NCBI GenBank assembly: GCA_023554245.1
Contig: JAMJQL010000075.1
Location: forward strand, 1 to 64,000
Length of the DNA: 64,000 bases
Reading direction: 5' to 3'
DNA from: Gemmatimonadota bacterium
Lineage (GTDB): Bacteria > Gemmatimonadota > Gemmatimonadetes > Palauibacterales > Palauibacteraceae
The notes below the pieces were generated by a model. The model searched no databases, had not been told where the DNA came from, and saw only the letters and a list, made by a program, of their open reading frames with translations. Below are positions 3,903 through 12,088 of this stretch, piece after piece. Position numbers and translations under genes: made by a program. Each line of letters begins with the position of its first letter. Position 1 is the stretch's first letter.

Positions 3903-3987
3903 AACTCCGCGACGCGTGGAGGCGTAGAGTGCACCGGTGACGTTCTCAGGAGCCGGCGCAGAGCGGCAGGCGGGAAAGGCACGGGAG

Positions 3988-5085
3988 ATGAAGCGGAAGA
4001 CCAAGGTGTGGATGGGCGTGCTCGGTGGTGTCGCACTCGTCGGGGCTGCCGGTACGGTGATGGCGCTTCGCGGAAACGATGGGAGCTCCGAGCACCGCAC
4101 CGTCGAGGTTCGCAGGGATTCGCTCGTCCAGAAGGCCCTCGCCGTAGGCAACATCGAGCCCGACGTCGAGATCGCGGTCAAATCCCAGATCTCGGGCGTG
4201 GTCCGGAAGCTCTTCATCGATGAGGGTGCTTTCGTCAAATCCGGGGAACCTCTCCTCGAGGTAGCTCCGAATCCGACACCGATCGAACTGGCCGACTCGA
4301 AACGACAGGTCGAGCTCCGCGAAATCGAACTCACCAACCTGCGGAAGGACCTCGACAGGAAGCGGGAGCTTCGGGCACGCGAATTCATCACCCAGGAGGA
4401 GCTCGAGCGAGCCGAACGCGATTACGAGCAGTCCGTCGTCCAGGTCCAGATGGCGAAGGAACGGGTGGCTCTGATGGAGAAGGGCAGCGTGCGGATCGGA
4501 AGCCGAAACATCGAAGGCGTGATTCGTTCGCCGATCGATGGTTTCGTGCTCGAGGCCCTCGTGGAGCAAGGCGATCCGGTCGTCCCCCTTTCGAATTTCC
4601 AGGAGGGAACGGTTCTGATCACCATGGCGGAGATGAGCGATCTCATCTTCCGCGGAACGGTGGATGAGATCGACGTAGGGAAGTTGAGTGAGGGCATGCC
4701 GGCGTCGATCAAGATCGGGGCGTTGCCGGATGCCAGGGTCGAGGGTGAGGTCTATGCGATCTCGCTCAAAGCACGGACCGATGACAACGCCACGGTCTTC
4801 CCGATCGAGATTGCGCTCACCGACGTCGAAGGCGTGACCCTGCGTGCGGGGTACTCGGCCAATGCCGACATCATCATCGATCGACGGCAGGATGTTCTCG
4901 TGATCCCCGAGCGGCTCGTGCGGTTCGAAGATGACGTGGCCAGGGTCACGGTCCTGCTTCCGGACGGCTCGACGGTCGACCGCGAGATTCGCACGGGACT
5001 CAGCGACGCGATCCACGTCGAGGTCGTCGAAGGACTGGAAGAGGGCGAGAAGATCGTCGAGGCTCCACCGCGCGAGATCTCCTGA
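3988..5085 (+). CDS. efflux membrane-fusion protein (HlyD/MacA-type periplasmic adaptor)
   Basis: This 365-residue protein has one N-terminal membrane segment (residues 8-26) and then the standard adaptor order: a lipoyl/barrel-sandwich half near residues 50-85, a charged coiled-coil hairpin at about 95-155, the second lipoyl half (SPIDGFVLEALVEQGDPV), a beta-barrel domain and a membrane-proximal domain. Such adaptors bridge an inner-membrane transporter to an outer-membrane channel. The start ATG 3988 is preceded by GGGAG. Two FtsX-type permeases follow within 19 and 14 bases, which suggests a MacAB-like or lipoprotein/peptide exporter. Substrate is unknown. No outer-membrane TolC-type gene is in the window. 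Confidence 0.85.
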   Translation: MKRKTKVWMGVLGGVALVGAAGTVMALRGNDGSSEHRTVEVRRDSLVQKALAVGNIEPDVEIAVKSQISGVVRKLFIDEGAFVKSGEPLLEVAPNPTPIELADSKRQVELREIELTNLRKDLDRKRELRAREFITQEELERAERDYEQSVVQVQMAKERVALMEKGSVRIGSRNIEGVIRSPIDGFVLEALVEQGDPVVPLSNFQEGTVLITMAEMSDLIFRGTVDEIDVGKLSEGMPASIKIGALPDARVEGEVYAISLKARTDDNATVFPIEIALTDVEGVTLRAGYSANADIIIDRRQDVLVIPERLVRFEDDVARVTVLLPDGSTVDREIRTGLSDAIHVEVVEGLEEGEKIVEAPPREIS

Positions 5086-5103
5086 GCAGGCGCGGATATC
5101 GCC

Positions 5104-6345
5104 ATGGGACGACTCCGCACCGTCGCTTCGGAATTCTGGAATGACGTGCGTGCCCAGAAGCTCAGGACCAGCCTGACGATTCTGGGGATCACCTGGGGCA
5201 CCGTGGCCGTAGTCGTCCTGCTCGCGTTCGGGACCGGCCTCGAGCGGGCCACCCTCAAGCGTTTTCACGGCCTGGGAGACCGCGTCGTCATGCTGTTCGG
5301 CGGCACGACGACCAAACCGTTCCAGGGCTTCCCGGATGGCCGTTCCATCCGTCTCACGGAGGATGACGCGCACATCCTGAAACAGCAGGTGCCGGAGATC
5401 GAGCGGATCAGCCCCGAGTTCAGTCGGCGGGGCACGCCGGTGAAGCACGGGCGGGCGATCATGAACCCGAACATCACCGGTTGCTGGCCCGACTACACCT
5501 TCATGCGCAACGTCATCCCGGACTTCGGTGGCCGATTCATCAACGAGGAGGACGTCGAGAAGCGGCGCCGGGTCGCGGTTCTTGGCGACCGGGTCCGTGA
5601 GATGCTGTTCGAGGGAGAATCCGGCGATGTGGTGGGTCGGCAGATCATGATCGGGGCGACCCCATTCACGATCGTCGGCGTGATGAAGCCGAAGAACCAG
5701 AGCTCCTCGTACAACTCGCGAGACCAGGACCGGGTGTTCATCCCCGCGAGCACGCACCGGGCGATGTTCGGGGATCGCTACGTGAACAACCTGGTCTACC
5801 AGACGGCCGATCCCGAGGCGTCGCAACGCGCCGAGGAGCAGGTCTACAAGGTGCTCGGCGGGAAGTACCGATTCGATCCGACCGACGAGGATGCGCTCGG
5901 CGTGTGGGACACCACCGAGTTCGAGAAGATGTTCAGCTATCTCTTCCTCGCCTTCAACGGCTTCTTCGCGATTGTCGGCAGCTTCACGCTCACGGTGGGC
6001 GGCATCGGAGTCGCGAACATCATGTACATCGTCGTGAAGGAGAGAACGAAGGAGATCGGGATCAAACGCTCGGTCGGAGCGAGGAAGGCGGATATTCTCC
6101 GGCAGTTCTTCCTCGAGAGCACTGCGATCGTGTTCGTCGGAGCGCTGATCGGCTTCGTACTCTCGCTCGGGGTGGTGAGACTGGTGCGCTTCGGTGACAT
6201 GGAGGAATTCATAGGAGTCCCGACGGTGTCTCCGGCCGTGGCGATCATCACGATGTCTCTGCTGGGTCTGATCGCCCTGTTCGCCGGTTGGTTCCCCGCC
6301 CGCAAGGCGGCGAACCTCGACCCGGTCGAGTGCTTGAGGCAGTAG
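5104..6345 (+). CDS. MacB/FtsX-type ABC transporter permease (first copy)
   Basis: This 413-residue inner-membrane protein has the MacB permease layout: one N-terminal membrane helix (about residues 20-42), a large periplasmic MacB-PCD domain, and three C-terminal helices (about 277-300, 330-350 and 370-395). The conserved cytoplasmic element ERTKEIGIKRSVGARK lies between helices two and three, and the protein ends in the typical PARKAANLDPVECLRQ. It lacks an ABC ATPase domain, so it must borrow one encoded elsewhere. It sits between the adaptor and a second, similar permease, and the two may form a heterodimer. Family members act in mechanotransmission-type export rather than channel transport. 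Confidence 0.88.
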   Translation: MGRLRTVASEFWNDVRAQKLRTSLTILGITWGTVAVVVLLAFGTGLERATLKRFHGLGDRVVMLFGGTTTKPFQGFPDGRSIRLTEDDAHILKQQVPEIERISPEFSRRGTPVKHGRAIMNPNITGCWPDYTFMRNVIPDFGGRFINEEDVEKRRRVAVLGDRVREMLFEGESGDVVGRQIMIGATPFTIVGVMKPKNQSSSYNSRDQDRVFIPASTHRAMFGDRYVNNLVYQTADPEASQRAEEQVYKVLGGKYRFDPTDEDALGVWDTTEFEKMFSYLFLAFNGFFAIVGSFTLTVGGIGVANIMYIVVKERTKEIGIKRSVGARKADILRQFFLESTAIVFVGALIGFVLSLGVVRLVRFGDMEEFIGVPTVSPAVAIITMSLLGLIALFAGWFPARKAANLDPVECLRQ

Positions 6346-6358
6346 GGAGGCGGGGACG

Positions 6359-7606
6359 ATGTGGCGGATTCTGCTGGAAGAGTTCTTCGGGGACCTCAGG
6401 GCCCAGAAGACCCGTGCGTTTCTCACCATGTTCGCGATTACCTGGGGCACGATCGCCATCGTGCTGCTGCTCGCGTTCGGGGAGGGCCTGAAACAGCAGA
6501 TCAGCACCGGTCTCCTCAATGCGGGCGAGAAGATCTTCATGACCTACGGCGGCGAGACGAGCAAGGAGTTCGAAGGTCTGCCGCGCGGTCGGCGTGTCCG
6601 CCTGACCGAGGAGGACATGGAGCTCGTCGTCCGGTCGGTCGACGACATCGACATGGCCAGTCCTTCGTACGGGCGCTGGGGCGTGACTCTCACCTACGGA
6701 GACGTGAAGACGACGACGTACATGGAAGGCGTGCATCCGGTGTTCTCGGAGCTGCGGAAGATGTATCCGAAGACCGGCGGTCGATTCATCAACGAGCGAG
6801 ACGTCGAGGAGCGCCGTCGGGTGCTGTTTCTCGGCGACTCGATCGCGTACCGGCTGTTCGGGGACGAGGATCCGATTGGAAAGACGCTCGATCTGGACGG
6901 TCTGCCGTTCACCGTCGTAGGCGTGATGCAGGGGAAGTTCCAGGACAGCATGAACAACGGTCCGGACGAGGAGCGTGCGATCATACCGGCATCGACGTTC
7001 AGGACGATCTATGGATACCGCTACGTGAACCACATCCTCTTCCACCCCCGCAGCAAGGAGCGGGCGGAGGAGACGAAGGCGGAGATCTTCCAGGTCCTCG
7101 GAGCAAAGTACCGGTTCGACCCGACCGACGAACGAGCGCTTCCGATGTGGGACTTCATCGAGAGCGAGAAGGAGACGCAGAAGATCGGTACCGGGATACA
7201 GATCTTCCTGGGAATGGTAGGTCTGTTCACCCTCCTGGTCGCCGGGGTCGGGATCGCGAACATCATGTACGTGGTGGTGAAGGAACGAACGCACGAGATC
7301 GGCGTGAAGCTGGCCGTGGGAGCGAGGAAGTCACACATCCGGAAGCAGTTCGTGTTCGAGGCCTTGCTGGTGTCGTTGATCGGAGGTCTGCTGGGGCTGG
7401 CCGTCTCGGTCGGTATCGTGACACTGGTCGACATGATTCCGACCGAAGGGAACCCGGCGATGAACTACATCGCGAATCCGAGGCTGTCGTGGCCGATCAC
7501 CCTCGGCTGCATGGGAATACTGATGGCGATCGGACTGGCGGCTGGATATCTCCCCGCACGAAAGGCGGCGGCAATCGATCCCGTGGAGTCTCTGCGGTAC
7601 GAGTGA
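6359..7606 (+). CDS. MacB/FtsX-type ABC transporter permease (second copy)
   Basis: This 415-residue protein is a diverged paralogue of the preceding permease. It shares the N-terminal stretch around TWGT, the periplasmic block with NERDVEERRRVLFLGD, the element KERTHEIGVKLAVGARK and the end PARKAAAIDPVESLRYE. Topology is the same: one helix, a large periplasmic domain, then three helices. ATG 6359 lies 14 bases after the upstream stop with GGGAGG ahead of it. The tandem pair suggests a heterodimeric transporter core arising by duplication. The ATPase partner is not in the window. Confidence 0.88.
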   Translation: MWRILLEEFFGDLRAQKTRAFLTMFAITWGTIAIVLLLAFGEGLKQQISTGLLNAGEKIFMTYGGETSKEFEGLPRGRRVRLTEEDMELVVRSVDDIDMASPSYGRWGVTLTYGDVKTTTYMEGVHPVFSELRKMYPKTGGRFINERDVEERRRVLFLGDSIAYRLFGDEDPIGKTLDLDGLPFTVVGVMQGKFQDSMNNGPDEERAIIPASTFRTIYGYRYVNHILFHPRSKERAEETKAEIFQVLGAKYRFDPTDERALPMWDFIESEKETQKIGTGIQIFLGMVGLFTLLVAGVGIANIMYVVVKERTHEIGVKLAVGARKSHIRKQFVFEALLVSLIGGLLGLAVSVGIVTLVDMIPTEGNPAMNYIANPRLSWPITLGCMGILMAIGLAAGYLPARKAAAIDPVESLRYE

Positions 7607-8957: not shown

Positions 8958-10985
8958 ATGGATTCAGACACGCGGGACGACAAAGACGGGAAGCCGGTCT
9001 GGCAGAGGTCGGAGAATGACCGCCAGATCGATGCCGATGCGTACCATATCTGGACGCCTCGGCCCCTGATCCGAAGCGTGTACTGGCGGCCGGAAGAGGA
9101 GCCCCCGAGAGAAGCCGTATCGGGTTCCTACGAGCTGTTCGTGGACCAGCGCGCCTTTACATCCATGCACGAGCACGTGTGGGGAGCCGGAGCCGACGAG
9201 AGCCCGTTTGGCTACCTGGTCGGCGATCTTTGCGAGGATCCCACGGCGAATCGGCGCTTCGTGATCGTCACGCAGGTGGTTCCAGCCCGGTTCCCATTCC
9301 AGGAGGCACAGCCGGAGCAGATCAGCGGTGAGGCCTCGGTCGCCCTGAAGCTGGAGGCGGATCGCAAGCGAGGCGTTCTCGTCGGCTGGTATCACGCACA
9401 TTCAGCAGGTGAGCCGATCCTCACGGCCGCCGACGTTTCCACCCACGAGCGACTGTTTCCGGATCCGTGGCAGGTCGCGATCCTCTTCGTGTCGGACCCG
9501 GACCGTCCCGCCGGCGCCACCTTCCGCCGCACACCCGAAGGACTGGACGGCGAGCTTCCGTTGCCGTTTTACGAGATGGTCACCAACGAGTCGCTACTCG
9601 CCAAGGGCGTGCGCAGGTCCCGGATCGACTGGGAGAACGTATCGACCCTCGACAAGGTCCGTGCGGAGCCGCCCCCGCGTCCCGAAGCGCGACCGTCTAC
9701 CCATGCGGAGCCGCCCGCTCCGCCGCCTCAGGTTCCTGCCGGCCCGGATCCCGAACCCGATCGGAAAGTGGAGCCGGAGCCGGCGGTCGAGGTTGAAACG
9801 GAACCCTTGTCGACCGCAGAGACTGAGCAAGTAGCGGAAGAGGCGAGCCGCGAGTCTCCCCCCGATGGACTCGAAGACGATCTCGACTTCGACGCGCTGA
9901 TCGCCGAGGTCGAGAGTGCCGGCCTGGAGGTCGAGGAGCCGGCCCCCGAGCCCGACACGGAGGAGGCTGTAGAGGAAGATACGGCCGGCGAGTCGGAGAT
10001 CGAGGATGCACTCGACGCGCTGACGGAGGTGGAAGACGATCTCGCCTCGGCCGACGCTGCGGCCGACCCCTCGACGGACGAGTCACTGACCCTCGAGGGT
10101 GCCCCGGAGGAGGATCCGGCCCTCGCCGAGGAAGCCCCCCCGCAGGAGCCCTCTGCACAGGCGGTTGCCGAGTCCATGCAGGAGGCTGCCGCCGGACCGG
10201 GAGTAGATGAACCGCAGCCGCATGCTCCGCCGGCCGAGGTCGGGGAACCGATGGTGGAAGAACTGTCGCCCCGCGAAGAGCCGGTCGAAGTTGCCACGCC
10301 CGCGGTCGAGCCGGGCGAGGAAACGGAATCAGCTGCCGGTGGCCGACGTCGTTGGGCCCTGCCCGTGCTCGGACTTCTCATCGCGATCGCCGTGATCGCG
10401 GTTCTGATCCGCGGCCTCGGGAGTGGCGTGGATTCGGATTCGGCTGCCACGCCGGACCGGACGGAAGCGACTCCCGCCGTGCAGGATCGGGAACGGCCGG
10501 ATCCGGAAGCGCCAACGGAGGCGATCGTGAGCGACCCGGCCGCCGGTGCCGCTCTCGCCGAGGGTGAAACGGACACTCCGTCTGCGGCGGAATCCGGGCA
10601 GCCTGTTCCGGCCGGACAGGGGTCGGGCGACGGCGCGGTTGCGGACCCCGATTCGGCAATTGCCGGGGTCGCGGACCCGAGTGCCGTACCGACACCCGCT
10701 CCGGTCTCGATCGAGACGCTCCGAGACCTGAGCGATACCGTGGTTGAGTCGATCAGTACGTTTTACGGTCGCTCCGGCGCGTTCGACAGGGGTGAGATCG
10801 AATGCCCTGATCTGCAGGCGTCCTTCGTGGAGGTTATGGACTCGTGGATCGACTACAGCACGCGAGGGAGGGCCGACTGGCAGGGGAGAATGCCTCCGGA
10901 CGTCGAAGAGCGGGACGAGCGCCTGTATCTCGGGGTTCAGGATGTCGAGCGGCTGTTCGAGGGCTCGTCCTGTCCGCGGCCCTGA
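8958..10985 (+). CDS. membrane-anchored JAMM/MPN-domain protein
   Basis: This 675-residue protein has an N-terminal JAB/MPN domain (about residues 55-215). It carries the full JAMM zinc ligand set: Glu81 in ESPFGYLVG, His146 and His148 in WYHAHSAGEPILTAAD, and Asp159. Spacing matches the classic HxHx(10)D motif, with Ser and Thr in place of the usual Pro and Ser. Known JAMM proteins are isopeptidases or metalloproteases, so catalysis is plausible. Residues of about 225-455 are a low-complexity, acidic and Pro-rich linker. One membrane helix follows near 464-485, then a variable linker and a small C-terminal domain (about 575-675) of unknown fold. If the N-terminus stays inside, the zinc domain is cytoplasmic and the C-terminus periplasmic. 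A peptidase gene overlaps its 3' end. Confidence 0.75.
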   Translation: MDSDTRDDKDGKPVWQRSENDRQIDADAYHIWTPRPLIRSVYWRPEEEPPREAVSGSYELFVDQRAFTSMHEHVWGAGADESPFGYLVGDLCEDPTANRRFVIVTQVVPARFPFQEAQPEQISGEASVALKLEADRKRGVLVGWYHAHSAGEPILTAADVSTHERLFPDPWQVAILFVSDPDRPAGATFRRTPEGLDGELPLPFYEMVTNESLLAKGVRRSRIDWENVSTLDKVRAEPPPRPEARPSTHAEPPAPPPQVPAGPDPEPDRKVEPEPAVEVETEPLSTAETEQVAEEASRESPPDGLEDDLDFDALIAEVESAGLEVEEPAPEPDTEEAVEEDTAGESEIEDALDALTEVEDDLASADAAADPSTDESLTLEGAPEEDPALAEEAPPQEPSAQAVAESMQEAAAGPGVDEPQPHAPPAEVGEPMVEELSPREEPVEVATPAVEPGEETESAAGGRRRWALPVLGLLIAIAVIAVLIRGLGSGVDSDSAATPDRTEATPAVQDRERPDPEAPTEAIVSDPAAGAALAEGETDTPSAAESGQPVPAGQGSGDGAVADPDSAIAGVADPSAVPTPAPVSIETLRDLSDTVVESISTFYGRSGAFDRGEIECPDLQASFVEVMDSWIDYSTRGRADWQGRMPPDVEERDERLYLGVQDVERLFEGSSCPRP

Positions 10986-12088
10986 CCGCGGCCTCCTGCA
11001 CTACGCCCGCCAGCTCGTTGTTCGCACAGTCCGACGGTCAATCGGTCGAGTATCCGCGCCCGCGAGCATCCGATCTCGGCATACGAATCGGTGGTCTGAG
11101 CTCGGGTGAGTGGAACGCGATCACCGATGTCGGCGATGTCCGTGTGGGCCACACGACAGTCGTGCACGGAGATTCGATTCGGACAGGCGTTACCGCGATT
11201 CTCCCGCACGGTGGGAACGTGTTCCGCGATCGCGTGCGTGCGGCGCTCGTGGTCGGCAACGGGTTCGGCAAACTGATCGGGGGGACACAGCTCTCCGAGC
11301 TCGGAGAACTCGAAACGCCCCTGCTTCTGACCGGCACCCTGAACGTCTGGCGGGTGGCGGACGCACTCGTGGACACGCTCCTGGCAAGCCCGGGATTCGA
11401 GAGCGTCCGTTCGATCAATCCAGTAATCGGAGAGACCAACGACGGCTGGCTCAGCGACATACGGGCCCGACCGATCGGAGCCGCGGAGGTCCGTGAGGCG
11501 TTACGAAGCGCCGTCCATGGCCCGGTCGAGGAAGGCTCCGTCGGAGCCGGCACCGGAACGCGCGCTCTGGGCTGGAAGGGAGGAATCGGCACCTCCTCCC
11601 GCGTGTTGCCCGACGAGCTGGGCGGTTTCACGGTGGGTGTACTGGTCCAGAGTAATTTCGGGGGGTCTCTCGTCGTCGCGGGGATCCCGGTCGGACGCAT
11701 CCTCAGGGACGAGGTGGGCGAGGAGCCCCGGGAGCCTGCGGACGCGGCTGGCGGCGGTTCGATCATGATCATCATCGCGACCGATGCTCCGCTGGACCAC
11801 CGGGGGCTCGAGCGTCTCGGAATGCGGTCGTTCGGAGGACTCGCGCGGACGGGAGCGGCACTCTCACACGGTTCAGGCGACTATGCCATCGCCTTCACGA
11901 CGGACGGGGACAGGCCGATGACTCCCGGAGGCCGAACGCTGACGGCCGTGTTCGGTGCGGTCCAGGCCGCGACCGAAGAGGCGATTCTCAACTCGATGTT
12001 CCGGGCCACGACGGTCACGGGATTCCGGGGTCGCAGGTCAGAGGCGATTCCCATCGACAGGTTGCGCGAGATCCTCGAGACTCGTTGA
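10844..12088 (+). CDS. P1-family peptidase (DmpA/BapA-type, S58)
   Basis: This 414-residue protein belongs to the self-processing L-aminopeptidase/D-esterase family. Family landmarks are ETNDGWLSDI (about residue 197), the GAGTG...KGGIGTSSR block (about 240-260) and HGSGDYAIAF near 341-350, where the Ser after Gly (about Ser344) is the likely autocleavage point and nucleophile. A hydrophobic stretch ending LTAASC or SLFAQ suggests export. The only ordinary in-frame start giving that segment is GTG 10844, which overlaps the JAMM gene by 142 bases and leaves an unusually long N-terminal region, so the start is uncertain. The substrate is probably a short peptide or beta-amino-acid peptide. Confidence 0.8.
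   Translation: MDRLQHAREGRLAGENASGRRRAGRAPVSRGSGCRAAVRGLVLSAALTAASCTTPASSLFAQSDGQSVEYPRPRASDLGIRIGGLSSGEWNAITDVGDVRVGHTTVVHGDSIRTGVTAILPHGGNVFRDRVRAALVVGNGFGKLIGGTQLSELGELETPLLLTGTLNVWRVADALVDTLLASPGFESVRSINPVIGETNDGWLSDIRARPIGAAEVREALRSAVHGPVEEGSVGAGTGTRALGWKGGIGTSSRVLPDELGGFTVGVLVQSNFGGSLVVAGIPVGRILRDEVGEEPREPADAAGGGSIMIIIATDAPLDHRGLERLGMRSFGGLARTGAALSHGSGDYAIAFTTDGDRPMTPGGRTLTAVFGAVQAATEEAILNSMFRATTVTGFRGRRSEAIPIDRLREILETR

Follow-up and report, generated by a model that had tools for sequence, protein, structure and literature searches.

An apparently undescribed Gemmatimonadota family of predicted membrane-spanning MPN proteins, with an exported protein as candidate partner

The gene described here encodes a JAMM-fold protein that is predicted to cross the inner membrane once, and it apparently belongs to an undescribed family of Gemmatimonadota proteins, in which an MPN domain is followed by a linker, a membrane helix and a three-helix domain predicted to lie outside the cytoplasm. 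MPN/JAMM proteins are known as cytoplasmic soluble or complex-bound hydrolases and scaffolds. Judged from gene linkage, the conserved partner of the family is an exported protein, designated c1, and not the peptidase whose gene overlaps the gene in the window, i.e., the whole stretch of DNA analysed, 64,000 nucleotides in length. We give an even chance to the reading that the window copy, assigned to class A, is a single-pass inner-membrane MPN protein acting as a transmembrane scaffold or receptor together with a c1 partner, the P1 peptidase being separate. The architecture, its recurrence, the two-cysteine outer domain, the linkage to c1 and the drift of the active site were read from sequence. 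A literature search found no paper naming both Gemmatimonadota and JAMM.

Architecture of the protein

The features of the locus are collected in Table 1. The protein had been described, in a reading made from the sequence alone, as a membrane-anchored JAMM protein of a kind not recognised, and this is borne out by the open reading frame, by the Pfam JAB match and by the recurrence of the architecture in many genomes. The same-genus orthologue is 56% identical over the full length. A domain search and a structure prediction had been proposed as checks, and for the N-terminal region they gave a Pfam JAB match (PF01398, residues 62-165, E=1e-5, above the curated cut-off) and a confident MPN model. 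The model was calculated by AlphaFold2 with 38 relatives as input (pLDDT 93.7, pTM 0.91), and its best PDB matches in Foldseek were Abraxas/BRCC36, Rpn11 and CSN5, with E from 1.5e-8. Both MPN+ and MPN- subunits are included among these relatives; the top matches are Abraxas chains of the BRCA1-A complex. The window domain also carries family-specific motifs, namely an N-terminal strand with W-x-P and the C-terminal motifs PF(Y)E and W-x-N. Neither the JAMM protein nor the P1 protein of the window was matched by NCBIfam.

Table 1. Features of the JAMM-P1 locus, in window coordinates.
Feature	Position	Strand	Basis
Class A transmembrane MPN/JAMM-fold protein (predicted), 675 aa	8958..10985	+	ORF, ATG start; Pfam JAB; orthologue; tree
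Predicted cytoplasmic MPN/JAMM domain	9036..9680	+	Alignment A1, AlphaFold2, Foldseek
Codons of Glu81 and Ser82; Ser82 at aligned JAMM catalytic-Glu position	9198..9203	+	Profile alignment
Zinc-ligand motif HxHx7[ST]xxD: His146, His148, Thr156, Asp159	9393..9434	+	Alignment
Acidic, Pro-rich linker, residues 226-465	9633..10352	+	Composition: 71 D/E, 38 P, 11 K/R
Single transmembrane helix (predicted), residues about 466-485	10353..10412, approximate limits	+	Hydropathy; positive side inside
Predicted extracytoplasmic three-helix domain, last ~100 residues	10680..10982	+	Alignment A2, AlphaFold2
P1/S58 (DmpA-type) peptidase, longest possible ORF	10844..12088	+	Pfam, orthologues

The long acidic, Pro-rich linker and the one membrane helix, both noticed in the sequence-only reading, agree with the composition of residues 226-465 and with a hydropathy peak at about residues 466-485, which is found in the orthologues as well. 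The helix is preceded by GGRRR, so that the N-terminus would be in and the C-terminus out; the MPN domain should thus lie inside the membrane and the C-terminal domain outside. The latter was predicted by AlphaFold2 as a three-helix bundle (pLDDT 93), and both of its cysteines are conserved without exception in the 31 aligned C-terminal domains, a pair which fits an oxidised compartment. The domain belongs to no Pfam family and had no significant match in the PDB. In this respect the earlier description of its fold as unknown still holds for comparison with solved structures, but a confident fold prediction is now available. A function could not be assigned from the fold, the three-helix model being confident but having no significant PDB match.

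Distribution and classes of the family

A profile search of 395 Gemmatimonadota genomes detected the family at strong scores in about 50 of them, which belong to the window genome's family and to two further families of the same class. The weaker matches in further genomes were generic JAB proteins. Nearly all complete copies share one domain order. A peptide-pattern search of the genome contigs returned one relative only.

The window genome (G000) holds three paralogues, assigned to classes A, B and C, of which A and C keep the zinc ligands and B has lost them. Class A comprised, in the tree, the window gene and members from G001, G003, G004, G009, G012, G015 and G018, with class B as its sister group; full-length identity within class A is 41-56% across the genera g1 and g4. 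Class B lacks the HxH, and its linker is replaced by a very long coiled-coil-like region rich in Ala, Glu and Arg. Class B proteins (L033, L043-L047, L204) reach about 1,400-1,600 aa and are without metal ligands, and the class B gene of the window genome seems to be split between contigs C84 and C117. The class C protein has 430 aa, with ligands kept. Ligand-bearing and ligand-less copies often occur in one genome, and in G031, G033 and G184 they are tandem genes.

Active site

The JAMM motif has been defined as EXnHS/THX7SXXD, with Glu as the acid-base catalyst, and mutation of this Glu in Csn5 abolishes activity (PMC300881). When the family profile was aligned to Rpn11, the catalytic Glu fell three residues N-terminal to the first Gly in GxxxG. 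The window protein has Ser82 in this column, and Glu81 is found at minus 4, one place off. The sequence-only reading had reported an intact JAMM ligand set: His146, His148 and Asp159 are indeed present, but Glu81 was misaligned, Ser82 taking its place. The pair Glu81-Ser82 corresponds to Arg-Ser in the same-genus orthologue from G001, which thus lacks Glu81 and any adjacent acid, and to Arg-Val in G003. At the Ser position of SxxD the window protein has Thr156, and most relatives have Ser or Thr.

Loss of the zinc ligands in orthologues had been named as an observation that would speak against the earlier reading, and such loss is rare in class A, where nine of ten copies keep them, the exception being the divergent extra copy L069. 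Among 83 MPN domains of the family, the full canonical set was present in 10, the ligands and a Glu displaced by one position in 11, the ligands without Glu in 34, and one or more ligands were lost in the remaining 28. Three orthologues (L040, L041, L042) have the complete set, as do copies from g5 and g6. Other ligand-bearing class A copies have Ser, Val, Ala or Gln at the aligned Glu position; the Glu is absent from every ligand-keeping copy of family f5, and in family f7 none of the sampled copies keeps all ligands. The ligand losses sit on several separate branches of the MPN tree. Residues invariant in the family are the Trp of WxP, the two GxxxG glycines, the GW preceding the first ligand His, and also Trp171, Phe204 and Glu206. 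As far as the alignments tell, it is the fold which is the conserved feature of the family, rather than the full active site.

These data bear on the strongest rival explanation, i.e., an active membrane-anchored JAMM metalloprotease in which Glu81 or another acid replaces the Glu, and which cuts a substrate released on an envelope signal. It draws on the confident MPN fold, on the three zinc ligands in nearly all class A copies and on the full canonical sets mentioned above, and Glu81, although displaced by one residue, might still function in catalysis. The replacements of the aligned Glu within class A and in f5, the same-genus orthologue without an acid at or beside this place, and the effect of the matching mutation in Csn5 argue against it, and we regard this explanation as unlikely, though as a serious competitor. 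The window domain probably binds zinc. We consider it at best a poor hydrolase, weak or no hydrolysis being more likely than robust activity. The earlier expectation of a likely zinc isopeptidase or protease is weakened accordingly by Ser82 and by the low number of family domains which combine Glu with all ligands. The scaffold reading has its own difficulty, since retention of zinc ligands in 55 of the 83 domains argues that the metal still matters.

The overlapping peptidase gene

The product of the downstream gene was recognised at first reading as a P1-family, DmpA-type peptidase, and this was confirmed by a complete catalytic domain (PF03576, E=6e-101), by its nearest solved relatives, which are DmpA/BapA-type aminopeptidases, and by the retained nucleophile/Gly-Ser self-cleavage motif GGGS at residues 303-306 of the long ORF. 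With a match to the DmpA/BapA (P1, S58) aminopeptidases over the whole catalytic domain, it is an ordinary member of that group, and by distribution it is unrelated to the JAMM protein. The P1 orthologues begin with signal-peptide-like sequences.

The overlap of up to 142 bases reported earlier stands as a maximum only. It is set by the most upstream GTG, which is seemingly not kept in the same-genus orthologue, and only 4 bases, GTGA or ATGA, are shared by the JAMM stop and the P1 start in G004, G009 (two copies), G012 and G021. A long dual-coding region was considered and is unsupported, because the orthologous P1 genes start at the JAMM stop. At the orthologous start position the window has CTGA, and CTG stands there in G001 too; in the P1 frame of window positions 10844-11020 there is no in-frame ATG, GTG or TTG between -142, the place of the upstream GTG, and +32 relative to the JAMM stop. 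Use of a non-standard start by the window P1 gene is possible.

Conservation of the gene pair beyond the window genome, on which the sequence-only reading had made its proposal depend, was found. Class A and P1 are adjacent wherever the class A contig continues, in G000, G001, G004, G009 (both copies), G012 and G021, the last locus being counted as a pair with a truncated class A end. The pair thus occurs in at least five relatives of the window genome, from two genera. The functional module proposed from this pairing fared less well. According to that proposal, a cytoplasmic zinc isopeptidase or protease and an exported P1 peptidase act jointly in two-compartment proteolysis or signalling, and the short overlaps, the adjacency in G001 and the signal-peptide-like starts of P1 are in its favour. 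However, P1 orthologues (59-75% identity) were found in 50 of 60 relatives and the JAMM family in 19 of the 60; the P1 orthologues span the order and the class, mostly in genomes without such a JAMM protein, among them G007, G002 and most g6 genomes. G007 has the same neighbourhood, consisting of three ABC transporter genes, P1, plsC and ETF-QO, minus the macB-macB-omp-JAMM block. Moreover, P1 overlaps other upstream genes elsewhere (an ABC permease gene by 1 base in G007, a different gene by 4 bases in G002 and a further one by 11 in two g6 genomes), so that, on this comparison of genomes, overlapping its upstream neighbour is characteristic of P1 itself. Wherever flanking sequence was available, the other JAMM paralogues had no P1 gene beside them, and in G045 the two genes are about 200 kb apart on one contig. 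The P1 distribution, the G007 locus and the other overlaps together make a dedicated two-compartment pair unlikely, and we rate the joint module as improbable. The adjacency in class A can be explained by one rearrangement, insertion or loss, in the ancestor of these genera. By its distribution, the overlapping P1 gene is a neighbour rather than an obligate partner of the JAMM gene.

Upstream, window positions 3937-7606 hold a tandem array of one HlyD/MacA-like gene and two MacB-type permease genes that differ from each other, and these genes accompany class A in other genera. In family f2 (L133, L134, L135), P1 is found a few genes from an apparent cluster of cysM, a generic JAMM gene and MoaD/MoeB, an unrelated JAMM near P1. 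A peptidase theme in genus g5, where an M1-type peptidase gene lies upstream of the JAMM gene, was dropped, the gap exceeding 800 bases in L058.

The linked exported protein c1

When neighbouring genes were clustered, c1 emerged as the gene that immediately follows class C and most f5 copies, frequently in a tandem JAMM-c1-JAMM-c1 arrangement. The c1 domain is 67 aa long, has two invariant cysteines, stands at the start of the protein and belongs to no Pfam family. The c1 proteins have signal-peptide-like starts, and Big_1 Ig-like repeats usually come after the domain; in other c1 proteins a TonB C-terminal domain (TonB_C) does. Several of the Big_1 proteins also carry TPRs and a C-terminal region which may resemble an outer-membrane barrel. 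For 43 of 57 strong c1 matches, the same strand carries a C-terminal domain of the JAMM family whose end lies 42-172 bases upstream, and some junctions are ATGA stop-start overlaps.

By raw counts, in which shared ancestry is ignored, 35 of the 50 genomes that have the JAMM family carried c1, as against 2 of the 345 others. In these two, the C-terminal domain occurs without the JAMM part, and c1 follows it immediately. The association thus follows the C-terminal domain, not the MPN domain, and contact of this domain with c1 in the periplasm would be the simplest reading. In f7, c1 and the JAMM protein co-occur unlinked. The window genome has its c1 genes on C34, together with class C, and on C190, together with TonB_C, and not at the window locus; no c1 lies beside class A, class B, g5 or g6 copies; several g5, g6 and f7 genomes gave no match in the c1 search.

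The class A copies could also be dispensable, decaying paralogues kept by drift alone. The missing linked c1 and the drifting active-site Glu would fit, but the full-length frame, all ligands and both outer cysteines are kept across genera g1 and g4, and we give this explanation little credence.

Proposed role and comparison with known systems

In the preferred reading of a transmembrane scaffold or receptor, a cytoplasmic MPN domain, an acidic linker and one membrane helix would lead to an outer three-helix domain clasped by a disulfide. In the periplasm, the outer domain would bind the c1 domain; c1 would in turn connect to Ig-like, TPR/outer-membrane-type or TonB-like parts, so that the protein would join the envelope to a cytoplasmic MPN assembly. 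The MPN+ and MPN- copies of one genome may form pairs like those of eukaryotic complexes. Lacking a linked c1 gene, the window copy would use c1 proteins encoded elsewhere, on C34 and C190, and P1 would be an older, separate exported enzyme which is co-translated with whichever gene lies upstream. More tentatively, and with clearly less than an even chance, we suggest a transmembrane MPN receptor system, in which MPN+ and MPN- proteins, each crossing the inner membrane, assemble inside in the manner of BRISC or Rpn8-Rpn11, exported Ig-like or TonB-like c1 proteins engage the disulfide-bonded outer domains and envelope events control the assembly.

With the JAMM/MPN+ metalloproteases (Rpn11, CSN5, BRCC36, AMSH; M67), the family shares the fold, the HxHx10D ligands and the Pfam JAB match. 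It differs from them in being membrane-tethered to an outer domain, in not keeping the aligned Glu and in its extra N- and C-terminal motifs. The MPN- pseudo-enzymes (Abraxas, KIAA0157, Rpn8, CSN6) have likewise lost the ligands that class B and other copies lack; class B resembles these systems also in its long coiled-coil-like region, and MPN+ and MPN- copies are often found in one genome, but the family is bacterial and membrane-anchored. The tandem genes with ligands kept and lost resemble MPN+/MPN- pairs such as BRCC36-KIAA0157 (PMC4579573), and their products may likewise form heterodimers. Prokaryotic JAB operons (Iyer et al. 2006, PMC1779556) have in common with the family a JAB-superfamily domain in bacteria; in contrast to them, no E1, E2 or Ubl neighbours were seen, and the partner is exported and Ig-like.

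A role as deconjugase for a ubiquitin-like modifier is very improbable: the fold is closest to ubiquitin-related JAMM subunits, but a search of the window genome for Pup gave no match while its control worked, E1, E2 and Ubl genes were not seen in the neighbourhood of any copy, and a bacterial E2 search of the window genome, its control not working, likewise gave no match. A defence system was also considered and rejected, PADLOC giving no match.

If the preferred reading is true, the family would represent a lineage-wide new use of the MPN fold, which would be linked across the inner membrane to a new outer domain with an exported partner of its own. The repeated active-site loss beside retained copies is natural material on the origin of MPN+/MPN- pairs. 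A natural error is also corrected, namely that of taking the peptidase for the partner because its gene overlaps so conspicuously.

Genomic surroundings of c1

Within the window's own family, a second type of c1 was noticed, in which the c1 domain is joined to a TonB C-terminal domain (L203:9079-9810 (-), L205-L209), and a separate TonB protein adjoins genes for the C-terminal domain only (L212, L213, L221). The JAMM-c1 genes of family f5 (L048, L136-L141, L153-L157) occupy a fixed site between a threonine-aldolase-like gene and dnaX, after which ybaB, recR and mglB/mglA-like genes follow. The class C JAMM-c1 operons (L034, L049, L052, L053, L217) adjoin imuA-, imuB- and dnaE2-like genes; at this site, G007 has kept the outer domain and c1 and has lost the MPN part.
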